Assembly (NCBI GenBank): GCA_022509005.1
Contig: JAFLUC010000006.1
Location: 1-49,950, forward strand
DNA: 49,950 bases
Direction: 5' to 3'
From: Oscillospiraceae bacterium
GTDB lineage: Bacteria > Bacillota > Clostridia > UBA1381
Shown here: piece by piece, positions 28,778 to 49,950 of the stretch
Layout of the letters: the number at the start of each line of letters is the position of its first letter
Position numbering within the stretch: the stretch's first letter is position 1
The notes under the pieces: generated by a model
What the model was told of the DNA's origin: nothing
Seen by the model: the letters and a program-made list of their open reading frames with translations, nothing else
The model's database searches: none
Program-made: the position numbers and the translations under genes

Positions 28778-28948
28778 ATGGGCAATAAATGTATGTGTAT
28801 GCACGGCGCTTCGAAGGCTGTCGGACTTTCGCTGCTCACATTCAGCATAGGAGTTTTAGCAGGTCTCTTGTGTCCGCTGTATGTCCTTGCGATTGTCGAG
28901 CTTTTCGTCCTTGCGCTGTTAGGTTATCTGTGTCTGCTTAAATTTTAA
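28778..28948 (+). CDS. Small membrane protein, 56 residues, next to spoVM
   Basis: No family recognised. The start ATG follows AAAGGCGG; the longer frame upstream starts before the candidate promoter and lacks a site. The protein has a short N-terminus with three residues of metal-ligand type (CMCMH), then two hydrophobic stretches (GLSLLTFSIGVLAGLLCPLY and VLAIVELFVLALLGYLCLLK) that could form a membrane hairpin. The sequence ends in KF. Location between sipL and spoVM, with a candidate sporulation promoter, suggests a role in the spore or forespore membrane, but that is inference. Confidence 0.6.
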   Translation: MGNKCMCMHGASKAVGLSLLTFSIGVLAGLLCPLYVLAIVELFVLALLGYLCLLKF

Positions 28949-28950
28949 GG

Positions 28951-29035
28951 TGAACAACTTGCTTGCAAGTTGTAGCATAGTGAACAATCTGCTTGCAGAT
29001 TGTAGCATAGCAAAACGAAGTTTTGCGTAGCGTAG
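28951..29035 (+). repeat. Tandem hairpin repeats in the spoVM leader
   Basis: Two 30-base units (28951-28980 and 28981-29010) are followed by a related 25-base unit (29011-29035). Each contains a hairpin and then a linker: (T)GTAGCATAG in units 1 and 2, CGTAGCGTAG in unit 3. The hairpins are CAACTTGC/GCAAGTTG, CAATCTGC/GCAGATTG and GCAAAAC-GAA-GTTTTGC. Between units 1 and 2 the only differences are two base pairs changed on both sides of the stem. The array stops five bases before the spoVM ribosome site. A partial copy lies before murB (49898-49950). Confidence 0.9.
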
Positions 29036-29051
29036 AAAAGGGGGTATATCT

Positions 29052-29120
29052 ATGAAAATTGTAGTTAAACGCGTACCGAAGGGACTTTCAGGTATTATCA
29101 AGCTGATTTTCGGATTTTAA
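29052..29120 (+). CDS. spoVM: Stage V sporulation protein SpoVM (22 residues)
   Basis: A 22-codon gene, far below ordinary gene-finding limits. It begins MKIVVKRVPKGLSGIIKL and ends with IFGF. It aligns without gap over the first 21 residues with Bacillus SpoVM (26 residues): M-K at the start, basic residue 7, Pro9-Lys10, Leu12, Gly14-Ile15 and Gly21 are shared, as is the amphipathic helix with a kink-making Pro9. SpoVM inserts into the outer forespore membrane, senses its curvature and recruits SpoIVA. The ribosome site AAAGGGGGT lies eight bases before ATG. It lies close to sipL, whose product also binds SpoIVA. The stop is directly followed by a terminator. Confidence 0.85.
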   Translation: MKIVVKRVPKGLSGIIKLIFGF

Positions 29121-29125
29121 TACAT

Positions 29126-29159
29126 AACAAAACGACACAGCGCGCTGTGTCGTTTTGTT
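29126..29159. terminator. Bidirectional terminator between spoVM and rnjA
   Basis: A perfect palindrome of 34 bases, with long arms AACAAAACGACACAG meeting at a GCGC centre. Its T-rich ends serve both convergent genes. Confidence 0.85.
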
Positions 29160-29161
29160 AT

Positions 29162-49885: not shown

Positions 49886-49897
49886 ATAAGTCCCCTT

Positions 49898-49950
49898 CTA
49901 CGCTACGCAAAACTTCGTTTTGCTATGCTACAACTTGCAAGCAAGTTGTT
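49898..49950 (-). repeat. Second copy of the hairpin repeat, in the murB leader (cut by window end)
   Basis: Read on the - strand, these 53 bases are identical to one 30-base unit of the spoVM leader array minus its first two bases (hairpin CAACTTGC/GCAAGTTG, then TAGCATAG), joined to the third unit (GCAAAAC-GAA-GTTTTGC, then GTAGCGTAG). The CT/AG arms identify it as the unit 1 version; the unit 2 version is missing. The copy ends six bases before the murB ribosome site. More units may lie beyond the window. Confidence 0.9.

Follow-up and report, generated by a model that had tools for sequence, protein, structure and literature searches.

The DNA at positions 28951-29035 is one copy of a hairpin family that occupies about 40 loci in the 2.56-Mb genome of its host, an uncultured clostridium congeneric with 'Candidatus Ornithomonoglobus'. 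Beyond the tandem leader hairpins described in the initial annotation, it proved to be a dispersed, lineage-specific insertion situated inside the Shine-Dalgarno sequence (SD) of about 40 genes. We consider it likely that the family is a small, non-autonomous, orientation-fixed and modular mobile hairpin repeat, which would have spread recently in this lineage by inserting into SDs that it regenerates. Mobility is suggested by the high copy number, the high similarity of the copies, their lineage-specific occupancy and the clean empty sites in sister species.

Architecture of the copy at 28951-29035

In the window, i.e., the whole 49,950-nt stretch that was analysed, the following features belong to this copy, its surroundings and a second copy.

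28778..28948, plus strand: upstream small membrane-protein ORF, ending in a stop codon that adjoins the element; in sister species it also precedes the SpoVM-like gene
28946..28950, plus strand: left flank TAAGG, i.e., the stop TAA of that ORF plus GG, a presumed remnant of the native SD; in two sister loci (L156, L157) an SD lies right after the upstream stop, with no element
28951..28980, plus strand: module 1, comprising TGAAC, a hairpin (arms 28954-28961 and 28966-28973, loop CTTG) and the linker GTAGCATAG (28972-28980)
28981..29010, plus strand: module 2, which repeats module 1 apart from two compensated base pairs (arms 28984-28991 and 28996-29003; linker GTAGCATAG at 29002-29010)
29010..29035, plus strand: module 3, a second hairpin type, GCAAAAC-GAA-GTTTTGC (29010-29026), with the terminal linker GTAGCGTAG (29027-29035)
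29036..29044, plus strand: apparently regenerated SD AAAAGGGGG at the 3' edge of the element, the start codon lying 7 nt further
29052..29120, plus strand: downstream gene of 22 aa (MKIVVKRVPKGLSGIIKLIFGF), SpoVM-like by pattern
49896..49950, minus strand: second copy, of the two-hairpin form, cut by the contig end and preceding the murB start codon

The initial annotation had described two tandem units whose four differences make two exchanged base pairs, and the sites were exactly as it gave them: the 30-base units 28950-28979 and 28980-29009 are 87% identical, and their 4 differences convert C28958/G28969 into T28988/A28999 and T28959/A28968 into C28989/G28998. As it had also claimed, the loop CTTG and the linker GTAGCATAG are identical in both units, and the third unit joins different arms (GCAAAAC GAA GTTTTGC) to a linker of the same kind, GTAGCGTAG. 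The better module boundary runs from TGAAC to GTAGC(A/G)TAG, with 28951 as the first base, and the GG at 28949-28950, directly 3' of the upstream gene's TAA, would be flanking native SD. Within the window, GTAGCRTAG occurs five times against 0.44 expected, and two of the five occurrences belong to the copy at 49896-49950.

The label "leader" was apt, in that the element forms the 5' leader of the 22-aa gene, which we take to be SpoVM-like from its motif. Neither the 22-aa protein nor the upstream small membrane protein matched any Pfam or NCBIfam entry. The same pair, i.e., the SpoVM-like gene and the small membrane-protein ORF (MGNKCMCMHGASKAVGLSLL...), is also present in sister loci L151, L156 and L157. 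Between the SpoVM-like gene and a convergent RNase J-like gene lies a perfect 19-bp inverted repeat with no spacer (29124-29161; ATAACAAAACGACACAGCG/CGCTGTGTCGTTTTGTTAT), probably a bidirectional terminator. The folding stability of the leader as a whole gave a z of only -1.5, so folding energy alone proves nothing here, and it is covariation that carries the case.

A dispersed family at ribosome-binding sites

A search of the genome and its relatives, as the initial annotation had recommended, revealed about 40 further places in the same genome (151 contigs, 95% complete, 0.18% contamination), as well as copies in related genomes. The 101-nt stretch used as a query gave 45 DNA matches in this genome, and a covariance model (R1) based on 19 complete copies gave 46. 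Several contigs end inside the element, which itself indicates a repeat. The copies are modular, with one to four hairpins; the commonest form has two hairpins and about 60 nt, and reads AAAGG TGAACAAYYYGCTTGCRRRTTGTAGCATAGCAAAACGNAGTTTTGCGTAGCGTAG AAAGGAG. One-hairpin copies precede dnaJ, ruvB, ispH and corA, three hairpins are found in the window copy, and four in L035 and L036. Linkers within a copy have the sequence GTAGCATAG, except for the terminal linker, which is GTAGCGTAG. Where full copies stand in tandem (L014, L016), AAAGG connects them, as repeated insertion into a regenerated SD would give. A sub-type with a shorter tail, in which a hairpin is followed by TCTAAACGG or TCTATACGG and AAAGGAG in place of GTAGCGTAG, was seen in the ribBA, gyrA/parC-type and gapA-like leaders (L112, L113, L040), also at SDs. 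Matches to GTAGC(A/G)TAG on contigs C7, C63, C97 and C151 were set aside as chance.

All copies with readable flanks, i.e., leaving aside three truncated at contig ends and one broken by Ns, share the orientation of a gene and immediately precede its start codon, separated from it by an SD. This position also holds for 32 members recovered with an anchor pattern that uses no SD letters, and likewise for two weak remnants, one of which precedes a gapA-like gene. The downstream genes include pyrG, prfA, der, murB, dnaJ, ruvB, ligA, trpB, ribBA, fabF, fapR, hpf, pcrA, a gyrA/parC-type gene, ispH, tlyA, aconitase and spore-germination genes. They are mostly housekeeping genes of unrelated function and share no common pathway, and a common regulon was therefore rejected. 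Only 9 of the 17 non-coding AAAGG sites in the window are SDs, and a plain AAAGG target would thus have left copies elsewhere, so that a fuller AAAGGAG target, or selection, is needed. The SD-only position could also come from less specific insertion combined with strong selection.

Sister orthologues, found with a concatenated query in the genus whose named members are Candidatus Ornithomonoglobus, lacked the element at 13 of the 13 loci compared and at spoVM, and each had an intact native SD. Presence and absence at orthologous sites, as looked for in miniature inverted-repeat elements (MITEs), is thus documented between sister species with diverged flanks, one genome representing each species; no long terminal inverted repeat was seen. 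In the aligned flanks the element interrupts the native SD immediately 3' of (A)AGG, and the rest of that SD (AG..) comes after the AAAGG of the element. The clearest alignments were those of parC (gAAAGG[TGAAC..AAACGG]AAAGGAGCCATGATAAATG against gAAAGGAGCCATGCTTAATG in the sister), dnaJ (gcgAAAGG[..] against gcgAAAGGAG), ribBA (ttttAAAGG[..] against ttttAAAGGAG), oadA and fabF (TTAGG[..]AGGcac against TTAGGAGGcag). At ruvB, ribBA and spoVM the upstream stop codon lies within the left flank, which argues that the left half of the SD is native. In a small test, with sisters that are not independent and contexts partly entered by hand, the left flank resembled the native upstream side (p 0.03) and the right remainder the native downstream side (p 0.007). 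AAAGG is identical on both sides at parC, ribBA and oadA, and does not match at fabF, pcrA and ruvB; from these sequences, the right-hand AAAGG may be either a target duplication or borne by the element.

With the covariance model at E <= 1e-4, 26 of 70 family genomes matched, the others carrying 1-10 copies each, while the 25 genomes from the order's other families gave no match at E <= 1e-8. At the latter threshold no other genome had more than three copies, as compared with 33 in the host. Some of the relatives' copies also lie at SDs, with GGAGG on both sides (L121, L124, L215, L230), and a four-hairpin copy in genome G072 (L217) has the same architecture as L035 and L036. The distribution and the likeness of L217 suggest that the modules are older than the species and that amplification at SDs was recent and local. 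In genus g15, a sister module (GTGAACAACACGCTTGCGTGTTGTAGGCGTGTT...) occurs mainly in terminators and intergenic palindromes, often outside SDs, so that SD targeting does not extend to the superfamily as a whole. In a separate intergenic repeat family of g15, longer palindromes (CCCCCTTTG[..]CAAAGGGGG) and terminators have a related module at their apex (L195 and L205 in G077 and G082; L198-L213). Single copies were seen in three other species (L235, L237 and L238 in G025, G014 and G001, respectively); that in G001 precedes a small coiled-coil gene of phage-like appearance, which hints at horizontal carriage. Phage, plasmid and viral collections contained no match to the element, and a single viral match (L309) was rejected as it forms no hairpin.

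Stem pairing and how the family may have spread

In the 19 complete copies, all 15 stem pairs are formed in every copy (285 of 285 cells), with two-sided changes at six pairs (26 cells). This level of pairing was reached by none of 500 shuffles, and slid pairings fell to 28-46%. Copies were also collected with a structure-blind anchor, i.e., TGAAC, 16 free letters and GTAG, no structure being used in the selection. Over all loci collected, six Watson-Crick pairs were present in 44 of 51 distinct contexts, with pairs varying among AT, GC, CG and TA and the loop reading CTTG in 43 of 49. Across the host genome this anchor gave 34 matches, of which 32 were family members, nearly all hairpin-forming, against 10 for a reversed control pattern. 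Among one-hairpin copies some pairs are broken, which would fit decay following insertion. The initial annotation had named two outcomes that would speak against the fold, i.e., a lack of further copies and arms varying without pairing; what we found was further copies, with 100% pairing in the complete two-hairpin ones and broken stems in some old one-hairpin ones. Its claim that the fold is being preserved is thus borne out by pairing kept across many more copies, although paired change alone cannot distinguish selection on an RNA fold from the needs of a mobile DNA or RNA hairpin or from quasipalindrome correction. As far as sequence comparison reaches, the pairing shows that the hairpin, whether as RNA or as DNA, is kept as the family spreads.

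It seems unlikely that the family is a regulatory or stabilising 5'-UTR module, whose hairpins shield the 5' end of the mRNA, bind a factor or insulate the SD, and which spread and was kept for helping expression. Such a role would suit the sense orientation of every copy directly before a start codon and the strictly kept fold of two-hairpin copies, and in a few leaders (e.g., C84:11155 and C35:6384) the element lies about 6 nt downstream of the end of a TATAAT-like box, which would place the transcript start at the element. However, the downstream genes have no function in common, their sister orthologues do without the element, some copies sit inside operons, and stems are decaying in one-hairpin copies at genes that are still needed (ispH, ruvB, trpB). 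In addition, predicted accessibility of the SD and start was barely altered, at 0.57 with the element, 0.54 with it excised (p 0.12) and 0.53 with it shuffled (p 0.02). Exposure of the SD by the hairpins was rejected given the small predicted effect; in the model, the small change on excision fits a harm-avoiding passenger better than a regulator.

Compensated stems might also arise by mutation: in quasipalindrome correction, template switching rewrites one arm from the other, and pairing then needs no function. Stem 1 indeed shows only double changes among the 19 copies, without one-sided intermediates, and one-sided states are confined to rarer or older copies, so arm-to-arm switching could contribute. 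Yet the loop and linkers, which would gain no protection from arm-copying, show the same degree of conservation as the stems, and of the six pairs examined five switch type on both sides between copies and genera with CTTG largely unchanged, which leaves this explanation of the pairing rather improbable.

Still more doubtful is a REP/RAYT- or IS200/IS605-type origin, in which a Y1 (HUH) transposase moves single-stranded hairpins with GTAG, inserting 3' of a short target and leaving a target-like right tip: the idea is attractive on account of the hairpins beside GTAG, the defined left target, the AAAGG right tip with no target duplication required, and Y1 genes above cut-off in 33 of 70 family genomes, but the host's 95% complete draft has no PF01797 match, none of 30 Y1 loci in relatives lies near a real element, no CCTTT-like guide was seen 5' of the hairpins, and the always-sense SD position is unlike that of REPs.

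For the mobile repeat that we favour, the following course can be proposed. The element would enter an SD just 3' of (A)AGG, and since its 3' end, GTAGCGTAG, is followed by a fresh AAAGG, the split SD would be restored with correct spacing to the start codon, leaving the host gene translatable. The perfect hairpins (type 1 with loop CTTG, type 2 with a 3-nt loop) are maintained as structures, most likely because a mobilising machinery, presumably acting in trans, recognises the folded strand. The search turned up no transposase or reverse transcriptase, nor any longer autonomous relative sharing the ends of the element. Going further, we give slightly less than an even chance to a new class of selfish element that targets the SD itself, i.e., one that integrates 3' of AGG, carries a replacement SD, can settle in essential-gene leaders with function retained and offers its folded hairpin as the substrate of a putative mobiliser. 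If so, a repeat living only in ribosome-binding sites, and restoring them, would represent a novel way for mobile DNA to find safe sites in a compact genome, and dozens of housekeeping genes would have gained a ready-made structured 5' UTR. As the sisters are empty at the same genes, effects on mRNA stability and translation are measurable locus by locus, and the compensated stems provide a natural mutational series for whatever recognises the fold.

Comparison with known systems

The initial annotation knew no named element of this form. An Rfam 15 scan of the window likewise matched only a bacterial small SRP RNA (RF00169; 17633-17726, minus strand), nothing in the element reaching the gathering score, and the literature on a named element in these bacteria yielded only comparators, i.e., cluster K SAS, BOX and REP/RAYT. 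The nearest case of start-associated repeats is that of the SAS and extended SAS (ESAS) of cluster K mycobacteriophages, short repeats, about half with inverted repeats, found in one orientation at the ribosome-binding site of many unrelated genes (PMC3203893). The SAS are phage-borne and largely conserved at orthologous genes between phages (PMC3203893), whereas our element shares their placement but is chromosomal, absent from sister orthologues and built of compensated modular hairpins, with the SD split and regenerated. A 13-bp SAS of the GGGATAGGAGCCC type was not present at the copies, whose right flanks read AAAGGAG with variable 3' letters, and no phage record matched.

Among modular hairpin repeats the nearest is BOX of Streptococcus pneumoniae, a small dispersed repeat with a variable number of internal modules and strong RNA folds (PMC3049150). 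BOX is regarded as MITE-like and as influencing expression where it is co-transcribed, and it is over-represented between convergent genes and not tied to SDs (PMC3049150); compared by description, the likeness lies in modularity only.

The nearest hairpin-plus-GTAG system is REP/BIME with RAYT (TnpA-REP), in which a hairpin with a conserved GTAG tetranucleotide is present in many copies and presumed to be mobilised in trans (PMC8266576, PMC2817692). In REPs GTAG lies 5' of the palindrome, whereas here it follows hairpin 1, thereby preceding hairpin 2 at a short distance; moreover, the host genome has no Y1/RAYT match and the element is always sense and at an SD. A REPtron arrangement, with repeats flanking or near a Y1 gene, was not seen at the 30 Y1 loci of relatives.

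Small elements derived from IS200/IS605 (palindrome-associated transposable elements) have a hairpin near each end, insert 3' of a short target and possess a target-like right tip. In the hairpins, the insertion 3' of a target and the target-like tip our element is alike, but no transposase link or matching guide sequences were found, nor ends in common with an IS200/IS605 copy at the relatives' Y1 loci. The element could be assigned to none of the families compared, and is best placed among small dispersed hairpin repeats, from which insertion into the SD with SD regeneration sets it apart.
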